A stretch of 64,000 bases of DNA from Nostoc edaphicum CCNP1411 (lineage in GTDB: Bacteria > Cyanobacteriota > Cyanobacteriia > Cyanobacteriales > Nostocaceae): positions 7,669,506 through 7,733,505 of the forward strand of contig NZ_CP054698.1 in assembly GCF_014023275.1 (NCBI RefSeq). Reading direction: 5' to 3'. Below are positions 21,604 through 43,408 of the stretch, one piece after another. The translations under genes were made by a program, and so were the position numbers. The notes under the pieces were generated by a model. The model saw nothing but the letters and a program-made list of their open reading frames with translations, was not told the DNA's origin and did no database searches. Position 1 is the first letter of the stretch, and every line of letters starts with the position of its first letter.

Positions 21604-22260
21604 ATGCCAAAAGATTGGTATGAATGGCACGATCTCTACAACACTGAGCCAAAATTGCGGCAGCGTCTAGAAATCGTGCAGGAATATATTGCTTATAGCT
21701 TAAATGCGTCTCCATCTGGCGCTATCCGAATAGTGAGTGTTTGTGCGGGTGATGGACGAGATTTACTAGGAACTTTAAAAAATCACCCTCGTGCGAAGGA
21801 TGTTTCTGCAAGACTGGTTGAAATAAATTCAAATTTAGTTGAGCGTGGACGAGCAACTATAGAGTCTTTGGGTTTAGCCAAGCAAATTGAGTTTATCAAT
21901 GATGATGCAACTCTTGCTACTAACTATGTAGGAGCAGTGCCGGCTGATATTGTGATTGTTTGTGGTGTCTTTGGCAATCTGGCACAGGAAGCTGAACTCA
22001 ATCGCTTACTAGATAACCTGAGTTTTCTGAGTAAACCAGGTGCTTTTGTCATTTGGACTCGTGGACACTCCAACGGTATTACCTACTCTGACAATGTGCG
22101 GAAAATTTTAAGTGCATCTGGATTTGAGGAAGTGAACTTCAAGCTTACGGCTACGGGAGACATGGGTGTAGGTCTTCATCGATACCTTGGTGAAAACTTA
22201 CCTCAACCCAAAGAGCAACAATTATTTGTGTTTTCTGGCATTCCTAGTAAAGCGAGGTAA
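21604..22260 (+). CDS. Class I SAM-dependent methyltransferase
   Basis: A 218-residue protein. Motif I is RIVSVCAGDGRDLLG (near residue 38), the acidic end of strand 2 is RLVEINSNLVERG, and post-I is EFINDDATL; a later DIVIVCGVFGNL matches motif IV. The substrate is not evident. The ATG at 21604 (MPKDWYEW) is chosen over an in-frame GTG at 21577. The stop is three bases before the ATG of the GST-like gene, so the two are an operon. It begins the run of sulfur and redox genes facing away from coaR. Confidence 0.8.
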   Translation: MPKDWYEWHDLYNTEPKLRQRLEIVQEYIAYSLNASPSGAIRIVSVCAGDGRDLLGTLKNHPRAKDVSARLVEINSNLVERGRATIESLGLAKQIEFINDDATLATNYVGAVPADIVIVCGVFGNLAQEAELNRLLDNLSFLSKPGAFVIWTRGHSNGITYSDNVRKILSASGFEEVNFKLTATGDMGVGLHRYLGENLPQPKEQQLFVFSGIPSKAR

Positions 22261-22263
22261 AAA

Positions 22264-23487
22264 ATGTCTATTCAAAACACAGTGTCAACTTGGGAAGAAG
22301 TTTTAGAGACTGCTAGAAAAAATACCTCTGCACGTAGGGTAAAGAGAACAGGACAATCTCCTTCTACTGCACCAATACCCAGCAGTTTAGAGAAACTTCC
22401 CCCAAATACAGAACCGCCAATCTTGCTTTATCGAGATACTAATTCCTGGTGTCCTTTCTGCGAGAGAGTTTGGTTTGCTCTCGAAGAAAAGGAAATTCCC
22501 TTTGCAACGGAGTTTATTGATTTAACTAATAAACCCAAATGGTACACTGACTTAGTTCCTACAACCCTTGTGCCAGCAGCAAAAATTGAGGGAAAGTTAG
22601 TATACGAATCTAAAGATATTCTCTTGGCTTTAGAAGAAAGGTTTCCTACTCCTGCATTATTGCCTGAGAATTCAGAGGAAAACGCTGTTGCTAGGCAGTT
22701 GGTTGAGGAGGCTGAGACTAACGGTTTTAGAGAAATTGCTTACAAATTCCTGAGAGAAGCACCTGTAGATGCTGATGAGTTGGCAAACTCACAAGCAGCA
22801 TTTGAGGCTAAGTTAGATGAACTTGAGCAAGCTTTGGCTAAATATCCCGGCCCTTACTTTGTCAGTACATTTAGCTTAGTTGACATTCTGTATAGCCCCC
22901 ATCTAGATAGATTGGCGGCTAATTTACCTGTATATCGGGGATATCACCTCAAAGGAAATCCTCGCTTTCCTCGCATTAATGCTTGGTTTGATGCACTTAA
23001 TCAGCGTCCTGCTTATCACAGAGTAAAATCGGATAATATCACCAATAATTTATTGTTGCGTCGCAGATGGGGTGTAGAACCGATTGGAAATCCTTTACCT
23101 CTGGATGTGGCAGATAGTGAGAAAATTCAATATCGCGCCGAAGCCGCTGAGAGATTGAGCGATAATCGGGAAGTTGCGATCGCAGATGTTATCAAAAATT
23201 CTGGAGTCCAAGCTTTAGCCGCAGACGGTGATTTTACCACAGTTAAAGACGCTGTTGATTTTCACCTGCGACAACTAGCTAATTATCTGATTCATGGCAA
23301 TGGTGCAACTTTACCGGGTGGAAGGACTGGTGGTAAAAATAGCAGCGTTGATCCTATCTTCGCTGCTGTGGGTGCTATTACTTTCGCATATTTGAGAAAT
23401 CGCATCTGCGCCCCCCGTGATATGAGTGCTGGTGCAGCAACAGCGTTTCGATCTGCGATCGATAAATTGTTGACATCTGTTTATTAA
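22264..23487 (+). CDS. Large GST-like protein with CPFC motif
   Basis: A 407-residue protein. The thioredoxin-like domain (about 52-130) has WCPFCERVWFALEE, so a CxxC site as in omega/DHAR-type GSTs or glutaredoxins. The cis-Pro loop is VPAAKIEG and the GSH-binding segment YESKDILLALEE. A helical GST C-domain runs to about 260. An extra C-terminal domain of about 140 residues (DAVDFHLRQLANYLIHGNGATLPGG) is not typical of GSTs. It is probably a glutathione-dependent thiol reductase or lyase. A GAGG ribosome site overlaps the end of the upstream gene, indicating tight coupling. Confidence 0.8.
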   Translation: MSIQNTVSTWEEVLETARKNTSARRVKRTGQSPSTAPIPSSLEKLPPNTEPPILLYRDTNSWCPFCERVWFALEEKEIPFATEFIDLTNKPKWYTDLVPTTLVPAAKIEGKLVYESKDILLALEERFPTPALLPENSEENAVARQLVEEAETNGFREIAYKFLREAPVDADELANSQAAFEAKLDELEQALAKYPGPYFVSTFSLVDILYSPHLDRLAANLPVYRGYHLKGNPRFPRINAWFDALNQRPAYHRVKSDNITNNLLLRRRWGVEPIGNPLPLDVADSEKIQYRAEAAERLSDNREVAIADVIKNSGVQALAADGDFTTVKDAVDFHLRQLANYLIHGNGATLPGGRTGGKNSSVDPIFAAVGAITFAYLRNRICAPRDMSAGAATAFRSAIDKLLTSVY

Positions 23488-23574
23488 TTTTGTGGGCGTT
23501 GCCTCATGCAGAGACGCAGCGAAAAGTTGGAGCGCTTCTGACTCCTGAATTCTGACTTTATTGAGGAAAGGGAA

Positions 23575-25224
23575 TTGCTAACAGTCCATAGTGAAAATGA
23601 ACTACAGTTAACTGCTGATGTACTGGTAATTGGTGGTGGCCCTGCCGCTGCGTGGGCAGCATGGGCAGCCGCATCCCAAGGAGTCAAAGTCATCATTGTT
23701 GATAAAGGTTTTCTGGGTACAAGCGGTGCTGCTGCTGCTAGTGGTAACGGCATCATGGCTCCGTCTCCAGAGAATTGGGAAAAAGTTTTAGCGGAGCGTT
23801 ATCGCGTAGGAAAAAACCTCGCTAACTCACGTTGGATCGAGCGTGTTATCGAAAAAACTTGGCTGAGTTTGCCCCTAGTGGAAAGTTGGGGCTATCGTTT
23901 CCCTAAAGAAGATGGAGAATCTGTGCGTCAGAGCTATTATGGCCCTGAATATATGCGGGTACTTCGCAAAAACCTTTTGCGTGTTGGTGTGCAGATTCTC
24001 GACCAAAGTCCCGCTTTAGAGCTTTTATTGGCTGACGACGGCTCAGTAGCGGGAGCAAGAGGTGTGCAGAGGCAACATCATCGTACCTATACCGTTCGTG
24101 CTGGTGCAGTAGTCTTAGCGAATGGCGGTTGTGCATTCTTGAGTAAAGCATTAGGTTGCAATACCAATACAGGTGATGGGCTGCTGATGGCAGTGGAAGC
24201 TGGTGGAGAACTTTCTAGTATGGAAGCTTCTAATCACTATGCGATTTCGACGGCTTTCAATGCGACTGTAACCAGGGGTGTTCCCTTTGGTTGGGCCAGT
24301 TATACCGATGAAGCAGGCAATGATCTGGGTGGCTATATCAATGGTCGTCGTGATCCATCGTTCCTCCCTAATGCACTCTTGAAAGGCCCCGTTTATGCTC
24401 GTTTGGATCGAGCCACACCGGAAGTTAAAGCAGTGGTTGAAAAGTCTCATTTCATCGCTTTTCTACCCTATACAAAAGCTGGTATTGATCCCTATACAGA
24501 ACGAGTGCCTGTAACACTTGTTTTAGAAGGTACAGTCCGTGGTACAGGTGGGATTCGGATTGTGAATGATGATTGCGCGACAAAAGTTCCTGGCCTCTAC
24601 GCTGCTGGTGATGCAGCATCGCGGGAGTTTTTAGCCGGTTTAGCTTCTGGGGGTGGTGGCCCCAATGCTGCCTGGGCAATCTCCACAGGACAATGGGCTG
24701 GAGTTGGAGCAGCGGACTTTGCTAAGAGTCTGGGCGCTCATGCAAATGAACGGGTTGCGCGTCCTGCTGGTCAAGTGGGATTGGGATCATCGCCCTCACC
24801 CACTTCTGAAACATTCGATAGTGAGGCGATCGTGCATGGTGTACAAGCCGAGATGTTCCCGTTGGAGAAGAATTACTTGCGTTCTGAGCAAGGACTTTTG
24901 GATTCTCTCGCTAAATTAGAGAAACTATGGGAGCAAGTACAAGGGAACCCAAAACAAGATACAGTGCGCGATGTGGAATTTTCTCGTCGAGCGGCTGCTT
25001 TGACAGCTGTAGCACGATGGGCATATTTTAGCGCGTTACATCGCACGGAAACGCGCAGCGAACATATTCGTGTGGACTATCCTGAAACCGATCCAAATCA
25101 GCGTTATTACCAAGCAACAGGCGGCTTAGATAAGCTTTGGGTGAGGCGTGATTGGATTACGGATGCAATTGCTACACCACCAGTACAAACCACTCAAACC
25201 ACACCTACTGTATCAAAGTTGTAG
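23575..25224 (+). CDS. FAD-dependent oxidoreductase, fumarate/APS reductase flavoprotein type
   Basis: A 549-residue flavoprotein. The Rossmann FAD motif is VLVIGGGPAAAWAAWAAA (residues ~16-33), then a Gly-rich GTSGAAAASGNGI and a C-terminal FAD loop VPGLYAAGDAASREFLAGLASGGGG. It belongs to the fumarate reductase/AprA group. A TTG start at 23575 is chosen because GAGGAAAGG lies 4 bases upstream and no ATG is suitable. The 2x[4Fe-4S] ferredoxin follows 12 bp later, giving an AprA/AprB-like pair. From memory, Pseudomonas putida asfA/asfB (aryl desulfonation) has the same reductase-ferredoxin layout beside an ABC transporter; an AsfA-like role is inferred. Confidence 0.82.
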   Translation: MLTVHSENELQLTADVLVIGGGPAAAWAAWAAASQGVKVIIVDKGFLGTSGAAAASGNGIMAPSPENWEKVLAERYRVGKNLANSRWIERVIEKTWLSLPLVESWGYRFPKEDGESVRQSYYGPEYMRVLRKNLLRVGVQILDQSPALELLLADDGSVAGARGVQRQHHRTYTVRAGAVVLANGGCAFLSKALGCNTNTGDGLLMAVEAGGELSSMEASNHYAISTAFNATVTRGVPFGWASYTDEAGNDLGGYINGRRDPSFLPNALLKGPVYARLDRATPEVKAVVEKSHFIAFLPYTKAGIDPYTERVPVTLVLEGTVRGTGGIRIVNDDCATKVPGLYAAGDAASREFLAGLASGGGGPNAAWAISTGQWAGVGAADFAKSLGAHANERVARPAGQVGLGSSPSPTSETFDSEAIVHGVQAEMFPLEKNYLRSEQGLLDSLAKLEKLWEQVQGNPKQDTVRDVEFSRRAAALTAVARWAYFSALHRTETRSEHIRVDYPETDPNQRYYQATGGLDKLWVRRDWITDAIATPPVQTTQTTPTVSKL

Positions 25225-25236: not shown

Positions 25237-25578
25237 ATGATCGAGCTTGTCAGCCATAAACTCTGTATTAATTGCAATTTGTGCGTCCAAGTCTGTCCTA
25301 CCAATGTCTTTGACTCCGTACCTAATCAACCACCTGCGATCGCCCGTAAGGAAGACTGTCAAACTTGTTTCATGTGTGAGGCATATTGCCCTGCGGATGC
25401 ACTTTATGTTGCGCCTGAATCTCATACCAGTGTTGCAGTCAATGAGGATGATTTAATTGAAAGTGGCATCATGGGTGAATATCGTAGCCTCTTGGGGTGG
25501 GGATATGGCAGAAAAAACAATAGCGAATTGGATACGGCTCATAAACTGCGCCAATTGCCGCGTCCTTATCAAAGTTAA
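25237..25578 (+). CDS. 2x[4Fe-4S] ferredoxin, probable electron-transfer partner of the FAD enzyme
   Basis: A 113-residue protein. Two cluster motifs are visible: CINCNLCVQVCPTNVFD (residues 10-26) and CQTCFMCEAYCPADALY (near 46-62), each CxxCxxCxxxCP. A C-terminal extension of 50 residues (GIMGEYRSLLGWGYGRKNN) resembles the tail by which AprB-like subunits hold their flavoprotein. It lies 12 bp after the flavoprotein gene, so a two-subunit enzyme is likely. Electrons would pass between a cellular donor and the FAD. Confidence 0.85.
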   Translation: MIELVSHKLCINCNLCVQVCPTNVFDSVPNQPPAIARKEDCQTCFMCEAYCPADALYVAPESHTSVAVNEDDLIESGIMGEYRSLLGWGYGRKNNSELDTAHKLRQLPRPYQS

Positions 25579-25616: not shown

Positions 25617-26648
25617 TTATTCAGCACTTTCAAGCACTTTTTGGCGTAGTTCTGGAAATACTTTGGAGACTTTATTCAAGAGATATTCGCCATAAGTCCC
25701 GCGAAATTCGTGAACACTAGCTTTATCCCAGCGATCGCTTTTATCATCATTCACTACCACATCCTTCAGTTCAATGGGTTTGACTTCAACGTTAAAGTTG
25801 GGATCAAAGAAGAACGGGAACGAAAGGCGATTACTCGTTGATAAGTTCTGAACGCGGTGGGGTGTTGAGCGATACAGTCCTCGTGTCATGCGATCGAGCA
25901 TATCCCCAATGTTGCATACGAATGAACCAGGAATAGGAGGTGCATCTATCCAACCAGACTTGGACTTGACTTGTAATCCACCGACATTATCTTGCTTGAG
26001 AATAGTTAATACTCCATAATCTGTATGTTCGCCAACGCCCCATTCAGATTTAGATAATGATGAATTAGGAGGGTAATTGAAAATCCGAAATAATATCAAT
26101 GGGTCTTTTGTATAACGATCTGCAAAGTAGGACTTTTCTAATCCCAAACTTAGAGCAATACCAGCCATTAGAGTGTGTCCAAGTTTGGTCATTGAGTATA
26201 TGTATTCAAGTACTGTTTCCCTAAATTGGGGAATGTTGGATGGAAAAAGATTGCGACCGTGCATTGGTGTACCAGCTTTCACAAGTGGATGGTCTTCTGC
26301 TAGTTCTCCACCAAAGTAAATACCTTCTTTTAAATCAGGTCTACCTGATGTCAACTCGTTACCCACGGGGAAATATCCTCGCCATGCTCTACCACCAAGA
26401 GCCATACGAATCTTCAGTTTAGTTTCTAAATCCTGTGCGAAGAACTGTTGACTTAGATCCTCTAATTGCTCTTGTAGTTGTTCATCAACTCCATGTCCGA
26501 CGATATAGAAGAAACCGAAATCTTGGCACGCTTGTCTGATTTGGTCTGCAATTACACAAGAAGAGTTGCTAGTTTGAGAAATCAGCGCACTAATATCAAT
26601 GATGGGAACTTTTGAAAACTCTTTGTCTACAACTTGTAAGATTGTCAT
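25617..26648 (-). CDS. Isopenicillin N synthase-like 2-oxoglutarate/Fe(II) dioxygenase
   Basis: A 343-residue oxygenase of the IPNS/2OG-Fe(II) family. The N-terminal DIOX_N segment is VPIIDISALI and QACQDFGFFYIVGHGV. The iron ligands are His and Asp of GEHTDYGVLT and the distal His of STPHRVQNL, and the 2OG-binding Arg-x-Ser is NRLSFPFF. All catalytic residues are present. The gene is convergent with the flavoprotein operon and divergent from the aldo/keto reductase. The substrate is unknown; oxidative attack on an organosulfur or xenobiotic compound would fit the setting. Confidence 0.88.
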   Translation of the reverse strand: MTILQVVDKEFSKVPIIDISALISQTSNSSCVIADQIRQACQDFGFFYIVGHGVDEQLQEQLEDLSQQFFAQDLETKLKIRMALGGRAWRGYFPVGNELTSGRPDLKEGIYFGGELAEDHPLVKAGTPMHGRNLFPSNIPQFRETVLEYIYSMTKLGHTLMAGIALSLGLEKSYFADRYTKDPLILFRIFNYPPNSSLSKSEWGVGEHTDYGVLTILKQDNVGGLQVKSKSGWIDAPPIPGSFVCNIGDMLDRMTRGLYRSTPHRVQNLSTSNRLSFPFFFDPNFNVEVKPIELKDVVVNDDKSDRWDKASVHEFRGTYGEYLLNKVSKVFPELRQKVLESAE

Positions 26649-26954: not shown

Positions 26955-28010
26955 ATGAACATATCCAAAAATATGCAGTATAACCAATTAGGCAATAGTG
27001 ACCTCAATGTTTCCGACATTTGCCTTGGCACAATGACTTATGGGCAACAAAATACTATAGAAGAAGCCCACCAGCAGCTAGATTATGCCATTAGCCAGGG
27101 AATCAACTTCATTGATGCGGCAGAGATGTATCCAGTACCAACCAGTGGTGAAACTTATGGCTTAACCGAAACTTATATTGGAGAATGGTTAAAACATCAA
27201 CAGCGAGATCAACTAATAATTGCTACTAAAATTGCAGGGCCGGGTCGAGGCTTTAAGTGGGTACGTGGTGGAGCGAAAGCAATTGATCGGGACAATATCA
27301 AACAAGCTGTAGATGATAGTCTTACAAGGTTACAGACAGACTATATTGATTTATATCAAATCCATTGGCCAGATCGTTATGTACCTCGTTTTGGACAAAC
27401 AGTTTTTGACCCCACTCAGGTAAAAGAAACAGTTTCCATCACTGAACAACTAGAAGTTTTTGCTGATGTCATCAATGCAGGTAAAATTCGCTATATCGGC
27501 TTAAGTAATGAAACCCCTTGGGGCGTTGCTCAATTTAGCCACGCAGCTAAACAATTAGGATTACCTAAAGTCGTCTCAATTCAAAATGCCTACAATTTAA
27601 TCAATCGAATTTTTGATGGCGCTCTTGCAGAAGCAGCTTATTACGAAAACGTTCCTTTACTAGCTTACAGCCCTTTGGGATTTGGCTATTTAACTGGTAA
27701 ATACCTTAACGACAAACCAGAGAAAGCAAGAGTTACTTTATTTGAAAACTTTGGTCAGCGATATTTAAAACCAAATGTGAGTAAAGCAGTAGCCGCTTAT
27801 GTAGAAATTGCCAAACGCCATCAAATAAGTCCTGCACAATTAGCGATCGCATTTGTAAGGAGTCGTTGGTTTGTTGCTAGTACGATTATTGGTGCTACTA
27901 CACTCGAACAACTCAAAGAAAATATAGACAGTATCAATGTAGTTCTCGACAAAGATATCTTGGCTGAATTGGACGCAGTTCATACTCAATATCCAAATCC
28001 AGCACCATAA
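26955..28010 (+). CDS. Aldo/keto reductase, Tas-like
   Basis: A 351-residue NADPH-dependent aldo/keto reductase. The start of the barrel (MQYNQLGNSDLNVSDICLGTMTYGQQ) and the active-site stretch GINFIDAAEMYPVPTSGETYGLTE match E. coli Tas closely: catalytic Asp and Tyr are in DAAEMY, Lys in IIATKIAG and His in YQIHWPD. The NADPH-binding end is STIIGATTLEQL. The true start may be the second ATG, six codons in (26973), by comparison with Tas. The physiological substrate of Tas is not settled. In this cluster it may reduce a carbonyl made by a neighbouring oxygenase. Confidence 0.9.
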   Translation: MNISKNMQYNQLGNSDLNVSDICLGTMTYGQQNTIEEAHQQLDYAISQGINFIDAAEMYPVPTSGETYGLTETYIGEWLKHQQRDQLIIATKIAGPGRGFKWVRGGAKAIDRDNIKQAVDDSLTRLQTDYIDLYQIHWPDRYVPRFGQTVFDPTQVKETVSITEQLEVFADVINAGKIRYIGLSNETPWGVAQFSHAAKQLGLPKVVSIQNAYNLINRIFDGALAEAAYYENVPLLAYSPLGFGYLTGKYLNDKPEKARVTLFENFGQRYLKPNVSKAVAAYVEIAKRHQISPAQLAIAFVRSRWFVASTIIGATTLEQLKENIDSINVVLDKDILAELDAVHTQYPNPAP

Positions 28011-28080: not shown

Positions 28081-29202
28081 ATGACGATCGCAACAGCATC
28101 AGTTGACCAAAATACTATTCGTCGCCGTGGTACTGGTTTAAGAGCTTATAATCCTGACAAGGCATTCAAGGGTTATACACTTTTTACACCACTTACAGGT
28201 AAGGGAGAAGTATATCTTCTGAATCTAGAAGGAGAAGTAGTACATCAATGGAATCTGCCATATTCACCGGGTTTATATGCTTATCTTTTACCCAATGGCA
28301 ACCTTTTTTATAATGGTAAGACACTAGATGTTCCGCCACATTTTCCTTTGTGGGCTGCCTTTAAAGGTGGCGTTGTCTTAGAAGCAGATCCCAAGGGAAA
28401 TATTATTTGGGAATATAAACATCCAGATCATCATCACGACGGACGCAGACTACGCAACGGTAACACGATTTTATTGGCTATTGAAAAGATACCTCAATCT
28501 TTGATTCCTCATATCAAAGGCGGTGTAGCGGGAACAGAAGCAGACGGTGATATCTATGCTGATGTACTTTATGAAGTTACTCCTGGGGGTGAAATTGTTT
28601 GGACTTGGCACGCCCACGAACACTTAGATCCAGATGTTTTTACTATCACTCCCCAAGATCAACGACACGAATGGACTCATGGCAATACTGTAGGCGAACT
28701 CGCTGACGGCAATATTATCGTTAGCTTTCGTAACATCTCTACCGTCGCAATTATTGATCGCCAAACAGGAAAAATTATCTGGACACTCGGAGATGATGTA
28801 TTAGCACAGCAACACTTTCCTAACGAATTAGCTAACGGCAATATCCTAATTTTTGATAATGGCGCACATCGCCGTCACACTGCGCTGAATTTCTCTCGTG
28901 TGATTGAAGTCAACCGTCAAACGAAAGAAATAGTTTGGCAATACACTGACAACCCACCTCAAAATTTCTTCAGTTCGTATATATCAGGCGCACAGCGTCT
29001 AGCGAATGGCAACACTTTAATTACAGAAGGTGCTTTCGGTCGTATATTTGAGGTGACAGTTACAGGAGAGATTGTTTGGGAATATGTTAATCCTCACTTT
29101 GCTGTTCGGAATCTTGGAGAGAAGTCAGCAGTAGCTAGTGGAGAGCAAAATTCAGTATTCCGCGCTTTTCGTTATGCGCCTGAAGAAGTGCCTTGGCTTT
29201 AG
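28081..29202 (+). CDS. Arylsulfotransferase (ASST) family protein
   Basis: A 373-residue beta-propeller protein. Repeated blade motifs (GEVVHQWNLPYSPGLYAYLLPNGNLF, KGNIIWEYKHPDHHHDGRRLRNGNTI, GEIVWTWHAHEHLD, NELANGNILIFDNGAHRR, GEIVWEYVNP) are those of aryl-sulfate sulfotransferases, which move a sulfuryl group between phenols through a sulfo-histidine. Several conserved His (HHHDG, HAHEH, EWTHGN) are available. Unlike proteobacterial AssT there is no signal peptide, so it is predicted cytoplasmic. Family membership is clear from the repeats; sulfotransferase activity is inferred. Confidence 0.78.
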   Translation: MTIATASVDQNTIRRRGTGLRAYNPDKAFKGYTLFTPLTGKGEVYLLNLEGEVVHQWNLPYSPGLYAYLLPNGNLFYNGKTLDVPPHFPLWAAFKGGVVLEADPKGNIIWEYKHPDHHHDGRRLRNGNTILLAIEKIPQSLIPHIKGGVAGTEADGDIYADVLYEVTPGGEIVWTWHAHEHLDPDVFTITPQDQRHEWTHGNTVGELADGNIIVSFRNISTVAIIDRQTGKIIWTLGDDVLAQQHFPNELANGNILIFDNGAHRRHTALNFSRVIEVNRQTKEIVWQYTDNPPQNFFSSYISGAQRLANGNTLITEGAFGRIFEVTVTGEIVWEYVNPHFAVRNLGEKSAVASGEQNSVFRAFRYAPEEVPWL

Positions 29203-29276: not shown

Positions 29277-29942
29277 ATGGCTGAAATCAAGGTATATAGT
29301 GCGGTTGTTTGCCCTTATGCTCACCGTTCGCGTTTGGTATTGCAAGAAAAAGGCGTCGAATTTGACTTGATTGAAATTAATTTGCAGAACAAGCCAGAGG
29401 GATTTACAGATATTTCTCCTTATGGAAAAGTGCCTGCGATCGCACATAATAATAACCGAGTTTGGGAATCGGCAGTAATTAACGAATATCTCAACGAGGT
29501 ATTTCCAAATCCGCCGCTTTTGCCTAGCAGTCCCATTGCTAAAGCACAAGCTCGGATCTGGATTGATTTTGCTAATACTCGATTTGTTCCAGCTTTTTCT
29601 ACTCTCTTGCGTAGTTCCGATATCCAACAGCAAGAAGCAGCTAAAAAAGAACTATACCAACATCTGGAATTTATCGAGAATGAAGCTTTAGGGAAGTTAT
29701 CAGGAGACGGCCCTTACTGGTTTGGCGAATCCGTCAGTCTGGTTGATTTCACCTTTTACCCCTGGTTTGAGCGTTGGCCTGCACTGAAGCACTATCGAGG
29801 CTTTGGTATACCAGAGGAATTTACTCGTCTACGTCAGTGGAAAAAGGCTGTAAAACAACGTGATTCTGTAGTGGCGATCGCTAATAGCAAGGAGTTCTAC
29901 ATAGAGCGATATGCTAGATTTGCTACTCCTGTTGCTGCATAG
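29277..29942 (+). CDS. Glutathione S-transferase, Cys-type (CPYA motif)
   Basis: A 221-residue GST with the active-site VVCPYAHRSRLVL (Cys near residue 12), the cis-Pro loop YGKVPAIAH and the GSH-binding WESAVINEYL. The C-terminal helical domain holds [10 protein letters not shown] and WFGESVSLVDFTFYPWFERW. A Cys site favours thiol transfer or reductive deglutathionylation rather than simple conjugation. It is a close paralogue of the GST at 31461-32132, which has Ser in place of this Cys. An AGAGGAA ribosome site precedes the ATG. It is in line with the arylsulfotransferase gene. Confidence 0.9.
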   Translation: MAEIKVYSAVVCPYAHRSRLVLQEKGVEFDLIEINLQNKPEGFTDISPYGKVPAIAHNNNRVWESAVINEYLNEVFPNPPLLPSSPIAKAQARIWIDFANTRFVPAFSTLLRSSDIQQQEAAKKELYQHLEFIENEALGKLSGDGPYWFGESVSLVDFTFYPWFERWPALKHYRGFGIPEEFTRLRQWKKAVKQRDSVVAIANSKEFYIERYARFATPVAA

Positions 29943-34039: not shown

Positions 34040-34090
34040 GATAATTGTCATTAGTTCTTTGCCATTGGTCTTGACAAAGTGGAAAGGATA

Positions 34091-34108
34091 ACACTCACGA
34101 GTGAGTGT
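34091..34108. promoter_or_regulatory. Perfect 8+2+8 palindrome upstream of the kinase-like gene
   Basis: ACACTCAC, GA, then GTGAGTGT, sits 16 bases before the kinase ATG. It is too short of T-tract for a terminator. It could be an operator or an RNA hairpin that affects translation of the kinase. Confidence 0.4.
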
Positions 34109-34123
34109 GCATACACGCGTAAT

Positions 34124-34837: not shown

Positions 34838-35458
34838 AACTCTTCTATACACCTAACTCACCCTATCTATGCACGCATAGCAAGAATAGCTTCACTAGAA
34901 CTGAATCTCAGCGATCGCATCGAAATGCAAAAAGTGACTGTGCGAGATCCCAACAGCGAGCTACTGAATTACAACCCCACAGGTAAAGTCCCAACACTAG
35001 CAACTGATGACGGATTTATTGTGAGTGATACACGCATAATATGCGTTTATTTAAATCAATTCAATCCCGAAATCAAATTATTTGCTGATATTTCTGATGG
35101 TTTTTTACAGCAACTTGAAGGTATAGCTAGTGGGTTCATAGATGGTATCGCTGTCTGGGTAAGGGAATTACGGCGTTCTTCAAGTGAGCAGTCACCAGGG
35201 ATAATCGAGTTAGAGCGATGTCTGACGACAAGCCGCTTTGCGTCTACACGTGCTTTAAGAATCTTGGACTACTTTGAGAAGATTTCTGATAAATTCGACC
35301 AAACTCCTAAACTTGCTCATATCACCCTTGCCTCTGCACTTGGTTTGGAGATTCGTCTACCTGAACTGCAATGGCGACTAAGTTACCCCAAACTTGCACA
35401 ATGGTATGATGAATTCTCCGGGCAACCTTCCCTGCAAGCGACGAAACCAGACTCCTAA
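34834..35458 (+). pseudogene. Glutathione S-transferase, frameshifted by CTAT duplication
   Basis: The ATG at 34834-34836 overlaps the kinase stop. The frame reads MKLFYTPNSPY and then leaves the GST frame. CTATCTAT at 34863-34870 is a tandem 4-bp duplication. Removing one unit restores YARIARIASLELNLSDRIEM and joins the open frame that continues from 34925 (GKVPTLATDDGFIVSDTRIICVYL, then the C-terminal helical domain) to the stop at 35456-35458, giving a normal GST of 206 residues. The gene is therefore inactive as read, unless the repeat is variable in the population. Confidence 0.85.
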
Positions 35459-35535: not shown

Positions 35536-36486
35536 ATGTTCACGGTTCTTTTATCCGCCTTCATCTTGACGTTTCACAACGTTACAGTACGAATTTTATT
35601 TTCAGAACATCTCGTACTGGGTTTATTTGTACTCGGTGGATACGTTAAACCGGATTTACAGAACTCATTATTGCTGATGTTTATGCGAATGCTACTGGTG
35701 GTTCCACTTATGGCATCTCTAGCATTTAAGCTATATCCATCTGCTGGAAAAGAATTGCGAGATTTATTCAGGCGCGAACGCACTGATGTTTTGCTCCAAG
35801 CATTGGGCTGTGGAGTCTTAATGTTTGTGTATATTGCGTTACTCTACATTGCAATTGGCTTAATTCCTACTGGAATTGCCATGACTCTATTCTTTACCTA
35901 TCCCGTGTTTACGGCACTGCTTGCTTGGAGGTTTTTTGGCGAACGTCCAACACTTTTCCGTTGGCTGGTGATGGCGATTATTCTGGGGGGTGGAGTACTC
36001 ACAATTCCTCAATCTTCTGCTGCTTACAGTAGTGATATTATTACTAATGGAATTTTCGCCAGCATTGGATCTGGAGTTGTTTACGCCTTTTATAAGGTTA
36101 TGGCCCAAAAATGTTTGGAAAAATTCCATCCAGTTCCTTTCACCTGGATTAGTTTTACCTGCACCCTACTGTTTTCTGGTGTCAGCTTACTGTTCTGGCC
36201 ACCTTCCAGTACTCAACTGGATTGGACACCTCTGTGGATTGGCAGTATTTTTTCTGGTTTAGTTAGTTTCATAGGGCACACTTTCAATAATGTAGGAATT
36301 CGCATGATTGGTGCAACTAAAGCCTCAATCGTCGGCGCTAGCAGTCCAGCATTAACAGTATTAGTCGCATGGGTCACAATTAGCGAAACTTTAAACTTGA
36401 TTCAAAGTTTGGGGATTCTAATTGTCACATTAGGGATCGCGTTGTTGAGTGGAGAAGGCTTTGTGCGTAAACGTAGCACTTCATAG
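35536..36486 (+). CDS. EamA/DMT family transporter
   Basis: A 316-residue membrane protein with about ten hydrophobic helices in two EamA halves. Typical pieces are LIPTGIAMTLFFTYPVFTAL, FGERPTLFRWLVMAIILGGG in half one and IGATKASIVGASSPALTVLVAW in half two. The drug/metabolite superfamily exports or imports amino acids, cysteine-pathway metabolites, purines and others. The position after the sulfur genes suggests movement of a sulfur metabolite, which is inference. Confidence 0.85.
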   Translation: MFTVLLSAFILTFHNVTVRILFSEHLVLGLFVLGGYVKPDLQNSLLLMFMRMLLVVPLMASLAFKLYPSAGKELRDLFRRERTDVLLQALGCGVLMFVYIALLYIAIGLIPTGIAMTLFFTYPVFTALLAWRFFGERPTLFRWLVMAIILGGGVLTIPQSSAAYSSDIITNGIFASIGSGVVYAFYKVMAQKCLEKFHPVPFTWISFTCTLLFSGVSLLFWPPSSTQLDWTPLWIGSIFSGLVSFIGHTFNNVGIRMIGATKASIVGASSPALTVLVAWVTISETLNLIQSLGILIVTLGIALLSGEGFVRKRSTS

Positions 36487-36849: not shown

Positions 36850-37638
36850 TTATTGTCTAATAATATTTCTTTTTCTCAAAGCTAAACTTGCACCTAAAAA
36901 TCCTAATGTTATACCCAAAATCGATGCAGGTTCTGGAATTTGAGTTGCGTCTAATTTCACATTATCGAAATTGATTTCTATACCATCACTCTCTAAAATA
37001 TTCAGCAATCGGATTTCTAACGCTTGTCCTAAGTTTGGGTTATTAGCTGAAGTAGTATACGAAATACTAGAGGTAACAAAAGCTCCTTCTATAATGCTCA
37101 GGCTATTAAAATCTTGAGTAAGTAAAGTTCCTCCAGCTAATAATTGAATAGCATAGCCAGGGAAACCATCTAAAATAGTGAAACCATTCACAGGTGGAAT
37201 ATTGGCTATTTCAACCTGTAAGGTATATTTCGTATTAGCTGTTAATAGACTGGTAAGGGTTTGTGATATTCCCACAGGACCACTTCCAGGCGGATAAGTG
37301 AGGTAAACATATCCAACATTATTTCCTTCTGGAGCTTCGTTAAAATAAACGTCTGCTGTAGGATTATATGCACCATAAATTGGCTCACCAATACCTATAC
37401 TGGCAGATGTCAGGTTAGATGGATCATATAATGTCCAGCCAGGTAACACATTAGTAGTAAAGTCTCCTTCTCCTATTATTGGTTCTTCAAAACCTGCATT
37501 AACTATACTTAAGCTTGCTGCATTTGCTGTATGAGTTTTAGTGATAGCTGCAATATTTATAGCTGCACAAATAGCAGTAATATAAGCAATTTTTGCGGAG
37601 ATTTTTTTGGGAATCATAATTTTAGTGGTAGATAGCAT
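36850..37638 (-). CDS. PEP-CTERM sorting domain protein
   Basis: A 262-residue exported protein. The N-terminal signal is basic then hydrophobic (KISAKIAYITAICAAINIAAIT, cut near AANAA-type residues at ~40). The mature domain begins SLSIVNAGFEEPII and WTLYDPSN, a jelly-roll/CBM-like start. The exosortase signal is IPEPASILGITLGFLGASL followed by ALRKRN. The stop lies inside the target duplication of the adjacent family B element. The start could be the second Met (residue 8). Confidence 0.87.
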   Translation of the reverse strand: MLSTTKIMIPKKISAKIAYITAICAAINIAAITKTHTANAASLSIVNAGFEEPIIGEGDFTTNVLPGWTLYDPSNLTSASIGIGEPIYGAYNPTADVYFNEAPEGNNVGYVYLTYPPGSGPVGISQTLTSLLTANTKYTLQVEIANIPPVNGFTILDGFPGYAIQLLAGGTLLTQDFNSLSIIEGAFVTSSISYTTSANNPNLGQALEIRLLNILESDGIEINFDNVKLDATQIPEPASILGITLGFLGASLALRKRNIIRQ

Positions 37639-37944: not shown

Positions 37945-37953
37945 AGTTACAAA

Positions 37954-38718
37954 ATGCCAGATAAATGGAATCCAGAATTATATGAACGGTTTCAATCCCA
38001 AAGAAGTCGCCCATTTTATGATTTGGTAGACATGGTACATCGACAAGAAAACTTACGAGTTCTAGATTTAGGATCTGGAACGGGAAAGTTAACTAAATAT
38101 CTGCACGATACACTAGCAGCACAAGAAACTCTGGGAATAGATGCTTCTGAAAATATGCTGCAAAAAGCACGGCAATATGAAGGTAACGGACTACGGTTTG
38201 AGCAAGGAAAAATAGAGGATAACCCAGGAGAAGGAGAGTTTGATTTAATCTTTTCTAATGCCGCTTTGCAATGGTTAACAGGACACGAAGCTTTATTTGA
38301 AAAATTACGCCGCAAGTTACGTCAAGGTGGACAACTGGCTATACAAATCCCAACGATGGACGATGAACCAGTACATCAGTTAGCGCTTGAAACAGCCAAA
38401 GATTTTAGTCAAGAATTAGGGGGATATGTACGGCGATTGGAAGTACTGACTCCAGCAAATTATGCCAAACTACTGTATAGTCTGGGGTTTATTAAACAGG
38501 AAGTAAAACTTCAGATTTATGGTCATGTTCTACCGTCACGAGAATCCGTAGTGGAATGGTATCGTGGTACGCTACTAACGGCATACGAGTCGTGCTTAGA
38601 TACCCAGACTTATGAACGATTTGTAAAACGGTATAGGGAAAAGTTATTTGAAAAATTGGAAGATGAACAACCTTTCTTTTTCCCTTACAAACGCATTTTA
38701 ATGTGGGGAAGTATTTAA
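37954..38718 (+). CDS. Trans-aconitate 2-methyltransferase-like methyltransferase
   Basis: A 254-residue class I methyltransferase. Opening WNPELYERFQSQRSRPFYDLVDMV, motif I VLDLGSGTGKLTKYL (near residue 35), strand-2 acid LGIDASENML, motif IV FDLIFSNAALQWL and the end EQPFFFPYKRILMWG match E. coli Tam along the whole length. Tam methylates trans-aconitate, a spontaneous inhibitor of aconitase. An AGGAGG ribosome site is visible. Substrate assignment is by similarity only; no symbol is given. Confidence 0.82.
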   Translation: MPDKWNPELYERFQSQRSRPFYDLVDMVHRQENLRVLDLGSGTGKLTKYLHDTLAAQETLGIDASENMLQKARQYEGNGLRFEQGKIEDNPGEGEFDLIFSNAALQWLTGHEALFEKLRRKLRQGGQLAIQIPTMDDEPVHQLALETAKDFSQELGGYVRRLEVLTPANYAKLLYSLGFIKQEVKLQIYGHVLPSRESVVEWYRGTLLTAYESCLDTQTYERFVKRYREKLFEKLEDEQPFFFPYKRILMWGSI

Positions 38719-39004: not shown

Positions 39005-39946
39005 ATGAGTAACTCTGTAACACTCAAGAAGATCAAGAATGAGATCAGTGGAACTGTGTTCTCATTGCCATATTACGTAGCTCGCGATCAAGGCTACTTC
39101 GCAGATGAGGGGATTGATATTGAGTTCGTTAAACGCAACTCTAGCGATCGCGCACCTGATATTAAACTGATTGAAGATCATCACCAAGTCAACTCTTTTG
39201 GCGGCAAATCACTATTCGAGCAGGGAGAAACTACCCTCTACCGTGCTTGTGAATGGGGACAAGTACGACGCACCTATGACAGTTCTCGCGGTGGTCAGGT
39301 TGTAGCCAAACGTGCTGCAATTGCCAGCCAAGCAATCATCGTGCGACCCGATTCCCCCTACAATATCCCTCAAGACCTAGCTAACGTACCAGTTGGTGTC
39401 AACTTTCACCACGGCTCCCACTATATAGCGATTCAAACTCTTGAAGGTTTCCTACCCAAAGAAGAAATCAAAGTGGTACATATCGATGGTGGCGGTCAAG
39501 GAAAGCGTTTCAACCGCTTTGTCGCTTTGCGTGACGGACTTGTTGATGCAGTTGCCGTCATGGAACCGTGGATTACAGTAGCAGAAAAACTTGGCTACAA
39601 AATTATCGCCGAGGCACACTATGTAGGGCTAGAGATTGGTAGCCCCGATTTGGATGCAGAGACATTCGAGGCGATTAATAGGGCAATCCGTCGAGCTGTA
39701 AAAGACCTACAAAAAGACCCTTTCCAGTATGTGAAGTATCTGATCGATGACGTAGCAGAGGATATTGTACAGCTCGAACCCTCAGACTTTCGTCGTAACC
39801 GATTGCGCTACGCCGACCCAGCACCATACCCTGAAGCTGACTTCCGTCGTACCTACAACTGGATGGTGAACTGGGGACTGATAGAGCCTGATGCCACTTT
39901 CGAGCAGATCGTCAATAACCGAGTTGCTTCGTTATCTATCTCTTAG
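39005..39946 (+). CDS. Substrate-binding protein-like, NMT1/SsuA type, no signal peptide
   Basis: A 313-residue protein with the fold and motifs of sulfonate/nitrate/thiamin-precursor binding proteins: FSLPYYVARDQGYFADEGIDIEFV at the N-terminus, VPVGVNFHHGSHYIAIQTLEGF and LVDAVAVMEPWITVAEKLG later. There is no signal peptide or lipobox at the start, so it is predicted cytoplasmic. It may be a THI5-like or desulfonation-linked enzyme or a sensor rather than the ABC receptor. It precedes a second, exported binding protein and the ABC genes. Confidence 0.75.
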   Translation: MSNSVTLKKIKNEISGTVFSLPYYVARDQGYFADEGIDIEFVKRNSSDRAPDIKLIEDHHQVNSFGGKSLFEQGETTLYRACEWGQVRRTYDSSRGGQVVAKRAAIASQAIIVRPDSPYNIPQDLANVPVGVNFHHGSHYIAIQTLEGFLPKEEIKVVHIDGGGQGKRFNRFVALRDGLVDAVAVMEPWITVAEKLGYKIIAEAHYVGLEIGSPDLDAETFEAINRAIRRAVKDLQKDPFQYVKYLIDDVAEDIVQLEPSDFRRNRLRYADPAPYPEADFRRTYNWMVNWGLIEPDATFEQIVNNRVASLSIS

Positions 39947-40101: not shown

Positions 40102-40277
40102 CTACGGTGTACACAGAAGTTATTGAATCACTACCAGTCCTCGAATTACCCCACCCTAACCCTCCCCGATGCAAAGGGGAGGGAACAAGATTTTCCGGTT
40201 TCCCCCCTTGGCAAGGGGGGATTAAGGGGGGTAAAACCCGGATCTCAAAGTAACTCCGATTTGTGTGTACACCTTAG
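40102..40277. mobile_element. MITE-like element family A, copy 4 with 9-bp target duplication
   Basis: The element is flanked by CCTGCAAGG at 40093-40101 and 40278-40286. The ends CTACGGTGTACACAGAAGT and, inverted, CTAAGGTGTACACACAAAT are imperfect copies of the family terminus. The body is the family A body in the opposite orientation to the 2.6-kb copy. It splits an older CTCTCCTGCAAGGAGAG palindrome. The rest of the gap 39947-40535 has AATTCGT heptamers and no gene. Confidence 0.88.
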
Positions 40278-40535
40278 CCTGCAAGGAGAGAGGAATGGAA
40301 GTGAGGTCAAAAATTAAGTTGCACATCGCGTAAGAGAGTCAGATTTAATCTAGTTTTTCAGGTTTGTATCTGTAGCTTTCATTTGCAGAATTGGTATAAG
40401 GGATATTTTTTGCACCTTTGCACAAAACTCATCCCATCAATCAACAACGCCAAAAATACTACTCCCTACTCTTTACTCCCTTTTTCATTCGTTCTGGTGT
40501 ACGCAGTTCCCAACGGATATATCTGAAATAAACCT

Positions 40536-41576
40536 ATGCCTTCACGTAGAGACTTTTTAAAATACACTTCTATAGGATTAACAACTGCTTTAACTACAAT
40601 CTCTTGTGACAATAACACTGTTAGTCAATCTGTCGCCGATCAGGGAACTCAGGGTACTATTAAAGTCAGACTAGGAGCAGTAAGCGGGATTAACTCCATT
40701 GATGTTTGGATTCCAGAGGATTTGGGTTACTTCAAGGAAGCGGGCTTAAGTGCAGAAGTGATTCAATTTCAAGGCGGTGGGAAAATGCGAGATGCTCTAA
40801 TTGCCGGAGAAATCGATTTTTCTGCCCAAGCACCTTTACACGTCTATCTCTCTCAGCTTAAGGGAGTCCCTCTGAATGTTGTAGCCAATCGGCGTAATCT
40901 TGTAGATACTTCCTTAGTAGTACGTTCTAATTTGCAATCCCAAATCAAGACAGTGAACGACCTGAAGGGGAAAAAGTTTTCGGTCGGTGAGGTTGGCTCT
41001 TGGGGCTGGGCAGTATCAGTCAAGTACCTGCGTCAACATGGACTAAGTGAAAAAGATGTTCAATATGTGCAAAGTAGTAATGCTACAACTTATACACTGC
41101 TCACTAGTGGTCAGGTAGATGCGGCTGTGACTGGTGCGCCCGACTTGCATAAACTACTCAAAGAAGGAACAGTTTTTCAATTAGTTAATGCTCTTGAACC
41201 GGAGACTCATAAAAAATATTTTGGCGCTCCTGAAGCGATGACCCGTGCTTGGCTGAGTCATGAGCGTGTTACTTCCCAAAACCCTGAAGCCGTTAAGAGA
41301 TTGGTTGCAGCAGTAAACCGCACATTTGAATATATGCATCAAACCTCACCTGAAAAAATTCTAGATGCAGTTGGAAAACGTTTTCAAGGTGCCAATTTAG
41401 ATGCGATTCTGACCGGTCTTCAGACTGAACTGCAACAATCAGTTCCTAGAAATGCCTCTATTAGTGAGGCAGCATATCTTGCAGACCAGCAGGTATTCAT
41501 TGATGCCGGGATTATTAAAAAATTAGTTCCCTACTCTCAAGCGGTGTTCGATAAGTATGCAGGTCATAGAGCTTAA
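40536..41576 (+). CDS. ABC transporter substrate-binding lipoprotein, SsuA/TauA type
   Basis: A 346-residue exported binding protein. The N-terminus MPSRRDFLKYTSIG has the Tat twin-Arg motif, and TTISC at residues 20-24 looks like a lipobox. The mature domain has IDVWIPEDLGYFKEAGLSAEVIQF, GGGKMRDALIAGEIDFSAQAPL, DLKGKKFSVGEVGSWGW and QVDAAVTGAPDL, as in receptors for sulfonates, nitrate or related anions. It is followed at 138 bp by the ATPase and permease genes, so it is the probable receptor of that transporter. Confidence 0.88.
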   Translation: MPSRRDFLKYTSIGLTTALTTISCDNNTVSQSVADQGTQGTIKVRLGAVSGINSIDVWIPEDLGYFKEAGLSAEVIQFQGGGKMRDALIAGEIDFSAQAPLHVYLSQLKGVPLNVVANRRNLVDTSLVVRSNLQSQIKTVNDLKGKKFSVGEVGSWGWAVSVKYLRQHGLSEKDVQYVQSSNATTYTLLTSGQVDAAVTGAPDLHKLLKEGTVFQLVNALEPETHKKYFGAPEAMTRAWLSHERVTSQNPEAVKRLVAAVNRTFEYMHQTSPEKILDAVGKRFQGANLDAILTGLQTELQQSVPRNASISEAAYLADQQVFIDAGIIKKLVPYSQAVFDKYAGHRA

Positions 41577-41597
41577 TTCGTAATTCGTAATTCGTAA
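41574..41597. repeat. Heptamer tandem repeat (TAATTCG)n
   Basis: Three to four TAATTCG units begin at the stop codon of the binding-protein gene. The same unit occurs near 35.5, 38.7 and 39.99 kb. Confidence 0.75.
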
Positions 41598-41714
41598 TGA
41601 CGCTCTCTACGAACGCGGGAGCGTGTCGTTCGCGGTAGCGTTGCGTAGCAAAGACAGACGCTAAAAGCGTAGCTTACTTAAGAGTAGTTTAATGTTCCCT
41701 TGGGATTTTTGCTT

Positions 41715-42512
41715 ATGTCAACCCCTATGATCACTACTCAAAATCTCTCCATTTCTTATTGGAGTAAGAATAAGCGAGTTGAAGCATTACAAGATATCAG
41801 CTTGACTATCAATGCTGGTGAATTTGTCACGCTGATTGGGCCAAGTGGCTGTGGTAAGAGTACTTTACTTAATGTGATTGCGGGGTTAATTCGTCCTGGG
41901 ACAGATGTCAAGGGCACCTTTAATAATAGTGGCATCAAAGAAATTGGCTACTTGTTTCAAAAGCAAACCCTACTACCCTGGCGGACAGTCCTAGGTAATG
42001 TCACTGCTCCTTTGGAAATTCGTGGTGTACCGCGAAATGAAGGACGGGAAAAGGCTTTGGCACTGTTAGCAAAGTATGGCTTGTATGGTTTTGAGCAGAG
42101 TTTTCCGAGAGAATTGTCGGGTGGGATGCAGCAGCGCGTTTTGCTGATTCGGACGCTGATTTATGAACCAGATGTTGTGTTACTTGATGAACCTCTTAGT
42201 AGTCTTGATGCTCAAACACGCGCTCTTTTACAGGATGAATTCCTGCGATTATGGCGCGATACGGGATGCACCTTTATTTTGGTAACTCACGACCTCGATG
42301 AAGCGATCGCACTTTCGCAAAGAGTATTTTTATTGAGTTCACGTCCTGGTAAAATTGTCAAGGAATTTCAGATTGAGTTACCAACAGAACGTTCTGCGAT
42401 CGCAATTCGCACAGATCCCCGATTTCAAAAAATCCAGCGTGAGATGTGGTCAGATTTAACCGCACAGGTATTGCAACAGCAAGATCGAGGATTCGCACTC
42501 TTTAAAACTTAA
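41715..42512 (+). CDS. ABC transporter ATP-binding protein, SsuB/TauB/NrtD type
   Basis: A 265-residue ATPase. Walker A GPSGCGKSTLLN (near residue 43), Q-loop LFQKQTLLPWRTV, signature LSGGMQQRVLL, Walker B DVVLLDEPLSSLDAQTR and switch His LVTHDLDEAIA are all present. The Q-loop and GPSGCGKST sequence are characteristic of the nitrate/sulfonate/taurine group. The ATG at 41715 (MSTPMITTQN) is preferred to an in-frame TTG at 41700. The permease gene follows after 11 bp. Confidence 0.93.
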   Translation: MSTPMITTQNLSISYWSKNKRVEALQDISLTINAGEFVTLIGPSGCGKSTLLNVIAGLIRPGTDVKGTFNNSGIKEIGYLFQKQTLLPWRTVLGNVTAPLEIRGVPRNEGREKALALLAKYGLYGFEQSFPRELSGGMQQRVLLIRTLIYEPDVVLLDEPLSSLDAQTRALLQDEFLRLWRDTGCTFILVTHDLDEAIALSQRVFLLSSRPGKIVKEFQIELPTERSAIAIRTDPRFQKIQREMWSDLTAQVLQQQDRGFALFKT

Positions 42513-42523
42513 TAGAGAATCAC

Positions 42524-43408
42524 ATGAGCAATATCCGCAATAGAACCTTAAGCATCGGGCAATCTGCTCTCTCTCCTACTAATGAAAACACAAACCTTTC
42601 GGGTTCTAACCCCCAAAAAACCAACTGGCAAAAACGTTTAATACAACTAGCGATACAGCTAACACCACTCGTTGTAATTTTGTTGGTGTGGGAACTTGGT
42701 ACGGGAGCATTTGATATTCCTAAGTTTATTGAACCGGCACTTGTAGGTAAACCAAGTAACATTGTTCAAGAGTTAAAGCAACTATTCCTGAGTGGTAGTA
42801 TCTTTCAACATATTTTTGTCACTTTTCAAGAAGCGATGGGTGGACTGTTTCTGGCGGTGACTGGTGGTATCAGCCTGGGAATTATATTAGCTTATTCTCC
42901 ATCAGGGGCAAAGATAACTCTTCCTTACGTCCAGGTATTTAATTCTCTACCTCGCATTGCCCTAGCGCCCTTTTTTATTATCTGGTTTGGGATTGGATTG
43001 GTTTCTAAAGTTTTTCTAGCAGCTTTGAGTGCTTTTTTCCCCATTTTTTTTACTACGTATCAAGGACTCCAGAGCATTGATCGTGAATTAATTTCTGCTT
43101 TTCAGGTTATGGGTGCTAATCGATGGCAGATGTTGTATATGGTTGTACTACCTTCAGTGATCAGTTGGGTAATTGCGGGGATTCGTACTAGTTTGGGTAT
43201 GGCTCTAGTAGGGGCGCTTGTAGCTGAGTATGTTGGTTCAACTCAGGGTTTAGGCTATCTATTGATGTCAGCACAGGGAATTTTGAACGTTGATCAAGCT
43301 TGGGCAATACTGGTAGTCTTAGCAGTCATTAGTGTTTTCCTCGATTGGGGTGTTCGCGCTTTAGAAACCTACGTTTTACGCTGGCGACCCAACCCTGGGG
43401 AATTATAA
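42524..43408 (+). CDS. ABC transporter permease, SsuC/TauC type
   Basis: A 294-residue protein with a polar N-terminal stretch of about 45 residues and six membrane helices. The EAA loop is YQGLQSIDRELISAFQVMGANRWQMLYMVVLPSVISW, typical of the sulfonate/taurine/nitrate permeases, and NSLPRIALAPFFIIWFGIG precedes it. It completes the transporter with the ATPase and receptor upstream. An IS element is inserted 80 bp past its stop. Confidence 0.92.
   Translation: MSNIRNRTLSIGQSALSPTNENTNLSGSNPQKTNWQKRLIQLAIQLTPLVVILLVWELGTGAFDIPKFIEPALVGKPSNIVQELKQLFLSGSIFQHIFVTFQEAMGGLFLAVTGGISLGIILAYSPSGAKITLPYVQVFNSLPRIALAPFFIIWFGIGLVSKVFLAALSAFFPIFFTTYQGLQSIDRELISAFQVMGANRWQMLYMVVLPSVISWVIAGIRTSLGMALVGALVAEYVGSTQGLGYLLMSAQGILNVDQAWAILVVLAVISVFLDWGVRALETYVLRWRPNPGEL

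Follow-up and report, generated by a model that had tools for sequence, protein, structure and literature searches.

Gene content of the locus

The window analyzed here is the whole stretch of 64,000 nucleotides taken from the cyanobacterium Nostoc edaphicum CCNP1411 (NCBI RefSeq assembly GCF_014023275.1, contig NZ_CP054698.1, positions 7,669,506 to 7,733,505 of the forward strand), a strain with a genome of 8.3 Mb in six contigs. Part of it had been predicted, from the DNA letters alone, to be a 22-kb island for acquiring sulfur from organic compounds, built around a flavoprotein and a ferredoxin of AsfAB/AprAB type. Our analysis indicates that the region is quite probably an accessory, mosaic locus for scavenging organic sulfates and sulfonates, in which a predicted AsfAB pair, a candidate alkylsulfatase and a CmcJ-like iron oxygenase accompany an importer and genes for sulfur assimilation. 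Every gene named in the original prediction was found open and in its place, and the sulfur genes were seen to run on past an IS5-type transposase as far as position 50249 (block 44733–50249). The genes on which the interpretation depends are as follows (positions are those of the window; GST, glutathione S-transferase; C5 is another contig of the genome).

23575–25224, + strand: predicted AsfA-family FAD protein, diverged cyanobacterial branch
25237–25578, + strand: predicted AsfB-family 2x[4Fe-4S] ferredoxin
31461–32132, + strand: GST (FSQR), immediately 5' of CmcJ
32181–33047, + strand: CmcJ/NvfI-family oxygenase, sulfur-linked subgroup (H142xD144, H237; NF041278)
33125–34039, + strand: candidate AtsK-type, 2-oxoglutarate-dependent alkylsulfatase of the TauD/TfdA family (H100xD102, H255; V75, A96, Y158)
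40536–41576, + strand: SsuA-family substrate-binding protein (SBP), model below cut-off, N-terminal signal by eye
41700–42512, + strand: ABC ATPase, nearest models TauB and SaoA, below cut-off
42524–43408, + strand: ABC permease, nearest models SaoP, TauC and SsuC, below cut-off
44733–45716, + strand: rhodanese, nearest model 3-mercaptopyruvate sulfurtransferase, below cut-off; second copy on C5
46180–47370, + strand: YedE/YeeE-family sulfur transporter; second copy on C5
47830–49134, + strand: O-acetylhomoserine sulfhydrylase (OAHS), 705.3 bits, cut-off 495.1; second copy on C5
49209–50249, + strand: homoserine O-acetyltransferase MetX, NF001209 400.9 bits, cut-off 331; second copy on C5

The AsfAB pair

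The flavoprotein ends at 25224 and the ferredoxin starts at 25237, which confirms the 12-bp gap reported between them, and by sequence comparison the two proteins are members of the AsfAB family that form a diverged cyanobacterial branch. The flavoprotein is 48.9% identical to the single match in a replicon of C. metallidurans CH34. The genome paper of this bacterium names AsfAB on that replicon (PMC2864759), and the CH34 protein, unannotated in its record, was equated with the known AsfA because it is the one match there. Identities with eight members of each family from Cyanobacteria, Proteobacteria, Bacillota and Actinomycetota amounted to 44–50% for AsfA and 44–55% for AsfB. In a tree of 36 of the 80 pattern-scan loci and nine others, with four long-branched, distant rows of the Frd/Apr superfamily as outgroups, the window AsfA occupied a long separate branch and grouped with the AsfA family rather than with the outgroups. 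At 30 positions, including R68W and F218A, all four class-A rows of the alignment (the class to which the window belongs) agree and differ from at least 24 of the 29 others.

For the "AprAB-like" half of the earlier description, in the sense of a closer kinship, there was no support. Model NF005331 for AprA gave 57.7 bits against a cut-off of 557, TIGR02061 was not among the best 25 of 39 model matches for the flavoprotein, the signature motifs differ and AprA is not its nearest relative by sequence, so that this candidate was rejected. A fumarate reductase was rejected as well, since the HYxMGG-type His and GANRLxSNSL Arg motifs, presumably the dicarboxylate-site residues of fumarate reductase, succinate dehydrogenase (Sdh) and NadB, are both present in the genome's own SdhA and NadB and absent from the flavoprotein, which has EGTVRGTGG and GGGGPNAAW at the aligned positions. 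The proposed check for clustering with unrelated fumarate reductases was thus run in part, and neither this alignment nor the tree with its distant outgroups refuted the AsfA assignment.

According to the portion covered of a review (PMC4267179), P. putida AsfAB complements Ssu, and asfA mutants lose the use of aromatic sulfonates and keep that of aliphatic ones. In the Nostoc genome there are three AsfAB pairs, namely that of the window and one copy each on C5 and, at 2.23 Mb, on contig C6. The C5 pair has as neighbors four genes for LLM monooxygenases (LLM), one acyl-CoA-dehydrogenase-like gene and two SBP-like genes, and the C6 paralogue one LLM, one acyl-CoA-dehydrogenase-like, two amidohydrolase and two SBP-like genes. 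Paired AsfAB operons were also seen elsewhere (L212, L235, L053), with two per locus and CmcJ between them in Paraburkholderia, and two close together in Paenibacillus.

The TauD/TfdA-family oxygenase

This protein had been taken for a TauD that releases sulfite from sulfonates, an assignment that our data do not support. Its best matches in the PDB were AtsK (350.7 bits) and relatives, taurine dioxygenase 1gqw (presumably the E. coli protein) reached 209.3 bits, and the NCBIfam TauD equivalog gave 272.3 bits, under its cut-off of 313. As described in the part of PMC3675115 covered, alkyl sulfate esters are the compounds that AtsK cleaves, taurine is not used by Rv3406, and alkylsulfatases have Val or Ile in place of TauD Y73, Ala in place of D94 and Tyr in place of a Phe. 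The window protein has V75 and A96 at the first two sites, which were located through alignment to AtsK and not to TauD itself, and Y158 at the third, if that Tyr is rightly identified. In view of the AtsK scores, the missed TauD cut-off and these three residues, 33125–34039 most likely encodes an AtsK-type alkylsulfatase, that is, a sulfate-ester oxygenase predicted to release sulfate and not sulfite.

The CmcJ-like oxygenase

The 288-aa protein encoded just upstream scored 339.3 bits with the CmcJ/NvfI model NF041278 (cut-off 80). Plasmid-borne relatives were found in 23 records, and the loci inspected were those of 7 of the 12 records at 43% identity or above and 3 of the 11 below, plus all three proteobacterial matches of at least 50% from genomes chosen because they bear AsfA. 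Sulfur genes were nearby in all ten close proteobacterial loci (43–52% identity; seven plasmid loci and three AsfA-bearing genomes): SBP in nine, ATPase in nine, permease in eight, LLM in seven, acyl-CoA-dehydrogenase-like genes in seven, TauD-like genes in four and AsfAB in two. The sole locus without an SBP, in Variovorax, has CmcJ beside TauD-like, CysB-type, LLM, rhodanese and cysteine-desulfurase genes, and in Caballeronia the next gene after CmcJ shares 58% identity with the window AtsK-like gene, which is also the gene order of Nostoc. CmcJ lies between two AsfAB pairs in two loci, both from Paraburkholderia, one of which (C35) was reached through AsfA, being on the contig of AsfA match L145. 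Three distant relatives (32–36% identity; of 11 such records) had no sulfur-gene neighbors. A TauD-family gene was present within 3 kb of class-1 CmcJ genes in 15 of 25 places and of class-2 genes in 4 of 33, many of the contigs being short.

A clean sulfur-linked CmcJ clade was considered and rejected, as the tree placed the long-branched, distant L232, L233, L223 and L234 unstably among the close relatives; the sulfur link therefore rests on the close loci and not on monophyly. Similarly, the GST that adjoins CmcJ in Geminicoccaceae has no more than 28% identity to the window GST, and that over a part of it; it was rejected as an orthologue, so that the likeness is limited to the adjacency of a GST. 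No on-topic literature on CmcJ and sulfonate was found in open-licence PMC articles judged by title. Judging from its gene neighborhoods, the CmcJ group of this locus looks like an unrecognized sulfur-scavenging enzyme and would be the most novel element of the island. We propose only tentatively, and with more doubt than confidence, that this CmcJ/NvfI subgroup might be a new class of organosulfur-cleaving iron oxygenases, which in Nostoc would form a GST-CmcJ-AtsK module, work alongside a re-purposed AsfAB of shifted active site and so provide a glutathione-assisted cyanobacterial desulfurization route not so far described.

Distribution and mosaic structure

AsfA family matches were present in 34 of 59 genomes (the strain's own, 34 of the genus and 24 from other families of the order), all of them within the genus, own genome included. 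Across a sample of the phylum, scored for at most three candidates per genome, the family was found at E 1e-80 in 21 of 386 genomes, belonging to 12 of 142 genera and one family only. The distribution is that of an accessory trait.

Gene neighborhoods were compared in three sets. The first comprised 86 AsfA-query loci (80 of 211 confirmed pattern-scan loci and six plasmid records), which include cyanobacteria, some from genomes in the second set, as well as four distant flavoproteins outside AsfA proper (L168, L172, L174, L175; 27–29% identity); the second, 17 Nostoc loci (15 of 20 other class-A places and two own paralogues); and the third, serving as a control from Nostoc only, 20 stretches of 20 kb each at arbitrary round coordinates. 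The family models were trained partly on matches from AsfA loci and may favor those loci. In the first set, AsfB was present at 79 loci, SBP at 59, ABC permease at 55, LLM at 35, acyl-CoA-dehydrogenase-like genes at 22 and TauD-like genes at 20; in the second, AsfB at all 17, LLM at 13, SBP at 11, GST at 9, the methyltransferase MT20 at 8, IPNS-like genes at 8 and TauD-like genes at 5. The arbitrary stretches, with which the CmcJ loci were compared as well, contained SBP twice, ATPase twice and none of the other families, LLM, TauD and GST included (one-sided Fisher test, LLM p 6.7e-7, SBP p 7e-4; related genomes are not independent). The anticipated co-conservation with sulfur genes was therefore observed, SBP and LLM being frequent at AsfA loci and near-absent from the control. 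GST and MT20 were each found in 2 of the 86 loci, cyanobacteria included, and are thus mostly Nostoc traits.

The island is a mosaic of modules, pieces of which other bacteria share, and most of its members are related to known enzymes. Module 1 (MT20-GST407-AsfA-AsfB) occurs in 8 of 15 class-A loci, and AsfAB is followed by IPNS-AKR-ASST-GST in 3 of 15 (AKR, aldo/keto reductase; ASST, arylsulfotransferase). Module 2 is GST-CmcJ-AtsK, in some cases also with the kinase, GST4 and EamA; module 3 consists of the NMT1-like protein and the ABC system, and module 4 of rhodanese-YedE-OAHS-MetX. Elsewhere in Nostoc the modules are apart or reordered; G009, for instance, has modules 2 and 3 (kinase and GST4 not seen) and two further AsfA copies within about 17 kb. 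The view of a single 22-kb island was not supported: CmcJ was found in none of the 15 class-A AsfA neighborhoods (up to 20 kb), and of 21 places with class-A AsfA, window included, 6 had CmcJ on the same contig at a distance of no more than 40 kb.

Module 4 is duplicated on C5 at about 97% DNA identity, some 23 kb from the second AsfAB, which has LLM genes around it. The whole duplication, between chromosome-like and plasmid-like contigs, comprises 44960–62920 and C6:1–5614 (L257) versus C5:110600–127000 (L258), with 89–97% DNA identity in pieces, and its layout suggests that contig C6 is circular. Near the sulfur block, the duplicated segment also encodes two further flavoproteins of the Frd/Sdh superfamily (L198, C6:3577; L199, C5:124952), which are of a different type.

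Other genes of the region

The remaining genes are listed below (SAM, S-adenosylmethionine).

21577–22260, + strand: MT20, a PF12147-like SAM methyltransferase; partner of GST407 on its upstream side and neighbor of AsfA in 8 of 15 class-A Nostoc loci
22264–23487, + strand: GST407, GST (CPFC) with phycobiliprotein-like C-terminal domain, Sll1902 relative, in 8 of 15 class-A loci
25617–26648, − strand: IPNS-like iron oxygenase (H208xD210, H264, R274xS276 present)
26955–28010, + strand: aldo/keto reductase (NF007912, 445.7 bits, cut-off 415)
28081–29202, + strand: predicted ASST-family propeller (PF05935; H119, H200, R217, H245), no signal peptide by eye
29277–29942, + strand: GST (CPYA)
30332–31180, − strand: SAM methyltransferase
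34079–34837, + strand: P-loop kinase, nearest models uridine kinase-like, below cut-off
34925–35458, + strand: fourth GST ORF (open reading frame), starting inside the GST N-terminal domain and likely degenerate at this locus
35536–36486, + strand: EamA permease
36850–37638: HpiC1-like protein with PEP-CTERM tail, inside the island
37954–38718, + strand: SAM methyltransferase, nearest model trans-aconitate 2-methyltransferase, below cut-off
39005–39946, + strand: NMT1/SsuA-fold protein, no signal peptide by eye
43544–44503, − strand: IS5 transposase separating the two sulfur blocks

The CPFC, CPYA and FSQR motifs are each carried by one of three full-length GSTs, as predicted. SAM methyltransferases are present as well, but number three (21577, 30332 and 37954) and not two, and the aldo/keto reductase (26955), the HpiC1-like/PEP-CTERM protein (36850) and the NMT1-like protein (39005) come in addition to the genes originally described. 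The GST part of GST407 matches Sll1902 (9r0w) at E 2.1e-38, and a second, short match lies toward the C-terminus. A C-terminal stretch resembles phycoerythrin alpha chains (E 3.6e-6), a domain that Pfam did not list. Sulfur-starved cyanobacteria degrade their phycobilisomes, and a link of GST407 to bilin thioethers is for that reason conceivable. The motif residues of the IPNS-like protein presumably play the roles usual for its family.

The ASST-family protein scored 97.7 bits with PF05935 (cut-off 24.2), and its three His residues and Arg are, we assume, those of the active site. Two of four plasmid loci of ASST relatives inspected (of 27 records), in Alloyangia and Streptomyces, adjoin an ABC importer, and the relatives of Pantoea and Burkholderia (the other two) have none, so that ASST was rejected as a general sulfur gene. 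The ASST genes at L214 7998–9107 and L213 7971–9110 lie by an SsuA-type SBP with LLM near (Streptomyces) or by the ABC importer (Alloyangia).

The NMT1-like protein has Y79, C82 and W84 invariant in 5 of 5 rows, has haloarchaeal relatives and is 68% identical to a protein of a coral-associated Geminicoccaceae plasmid, where its gene lies beside those for CmcJ, a GST and an ABC system; it may be an enzyme. A role as DszB-like desulfinase was tentatively rejected, as PDB searches gave SBP, THI5 and similar folds, and solved DszB was not among its 16 profile matches up to E 1. Adjoining the island, a MerR domain is fused to precorrin-8X methylmutase (20205–21317), presumably a CoaR-like cobalt sensor. 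The promoter and terminator scan gave a result near chance level, and Rfam no match at gathering score.

Proposed function and alternative explanations

A role in organosulfur acquisition, as originally proposed, is well supported by the AsfAB family membership, the AtsK residues, the conserved neighborhoods, the CmcJ settings and the OAHS/MetX block; the substrates and chemistry outlined here are predictions from sequence. The Ssu/Tau-type ABC system (40536–43408, 15 kb from AsfAB), whose presence in the cluster was confirmed, would import sulfated or sulfonated organic acids, presumably upon sulfur shortage. The AtsK-type oxygenase would hydroxylate the carbon carrying an alkyl sulfate ester and thereby liberate sulfate, and the CmcJ-type and IPNS-like oxygenases might open other C-S or C-O-S substrates. 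The AsfA flavin could receive electrons from the AsfB ferredoxin and use them in a step that is reductive or supports an oxygenase, and the GSTs might act on aromatic or aldehyde products by conjugation or deconjugation. The freed sulfur would be reduced elsewhere to sulfide and enter homocysteine via OAHS and MetX, with rhodanese and YedE handling sulfane sulfur. Aryl and glutathione-linked substrates, as first suggested, are guesses.

Several observations weigh against this interpretation. The modules are not conserved as a unit. No LLM monooxygenase was found in the island, and no LysR/CysB/AsfR-type regulator among the scanned ORFs of 18858–50249 (two overlapping minor ORFs lay outside the scan), so that the window AsfAB may depend on monooxygenases elsewhere, of which five are beside the other copies. 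By a stricter neighbor test, AsfB stood immediately behind 54 of 109 AsfA-like ORF matches, fragments included. The AsfA branch is diverged, and its comparison rests on the CH34 protein and not on S-313 AsfA. In 17 loci of the second class of cyanobacterial CmcJ the sulfur link is partial (TauD-like genes in five, GST in five, SBP in three, LLM in two). The outgroups of the AsfA tree included no true Sdh, NadB or AprA, and this, like the route through AsfA to one Paraburkholderia locus, weighs slightly against both the scavenging locus and the CmcJ proposal.

Among the alternatives, an unlikely one is a natural-product or detoxification cluster, in which the GSTs, methyltransferases, CmcJ, IPNS-like protein, ASST and aldo/keto reductase would serve to make or detoxify a (sulfated) metabolite, with the importer playing no part in it. 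Antibiotic biosynthesis is known to involve members of the CmcJ and IPNS families, and the interval has three methyltransferases and an EamA permease; however, no core gene for a polyketide synthase or nonribosomal peptide synthetase was present among the scanned ORFs, close proteobacterial CmcJ relatives stand with SBP, LLM, acyl-CoA-dehydrogenase-like or AsfAB genes, and the AtsK residues and the OAHS/MetX block indicate sulfur acquisition. It is quite improbable that the genes are a loose set of unrelated, transferable elements in a recombination hot spot, whose closeness says little about joint function: although the modules turn up separately in other genomes, IS5-type transposase ORFs are present at 43544 and 53145 and the C5/C6 duplication is large, partners of the same kinds are met again in other phyla, differently ordered, and arbitrary Nostoc stretches are almost free of them. 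We consider it very improbable that AsfAB works like the sulfonucleotide (APS/PAPS) reductase of Methanothermococcus and yields sulfite from activated sulfate.

If an organosulfur-scavenging locus is indeed present, this Nostoc has three AsfAB pairs, and asfA, which serves as a marker for desulfonation in soil, has a cyanobacterial branch as well, which existing asfA primers may, as a guess, miss; CmcJ-type oxygenases would become candidates for unassigned C-S cleavage. The portions of the literature covered, including review PMC4267179, name asfA from Proteobacteria and Actinobacteria only. No on-topic article on asfA in cyanobacteria was found in open-licence PMC, judged by title, and the organosulfur literature checked for AsfA-type terms contained none, apart from ferredoxin-sulfite reductase.

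Comparison with known systems

With AsfAB of P. putida S-313 and C. metallidurans, the window shares an FAD protein, an adjacent gene for a 2x[4Fe-4S] ferredoxin and an SsuA-type importer in the region; it differs in its long separate branch and in that no LysR regulator or SsuD-like gene was found beside the pair. AprAB and the PAPS reductase of Methanothermococcus have the same flavoprotein and 2x[4Fe-4S] layout and a common fold, whereas they are not nearest by sequence and carry other signature motifs. GST407 resembles Sll1902 of Synechocystis in its GST part but stands in an AsfAB locus; for Sll1902, the portions of the literature covered gave no function. The candidate alkylsulfatase agrees with the type II enzymes AtsK and Rv3406 in its score to AtsK, in H100xD102...H255 and in V75, A96 and Y158, and differs from them in adjoining CmcJ and GST genes. 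Finally, the window oxygenase has the family score, the HxD and the His of CmcJ/NvfI enzymes, whose known roles are in cephamycin or meroterpenoid synthesis, whereas the genomic setting of its subgroup is that of sulfur acquisition.

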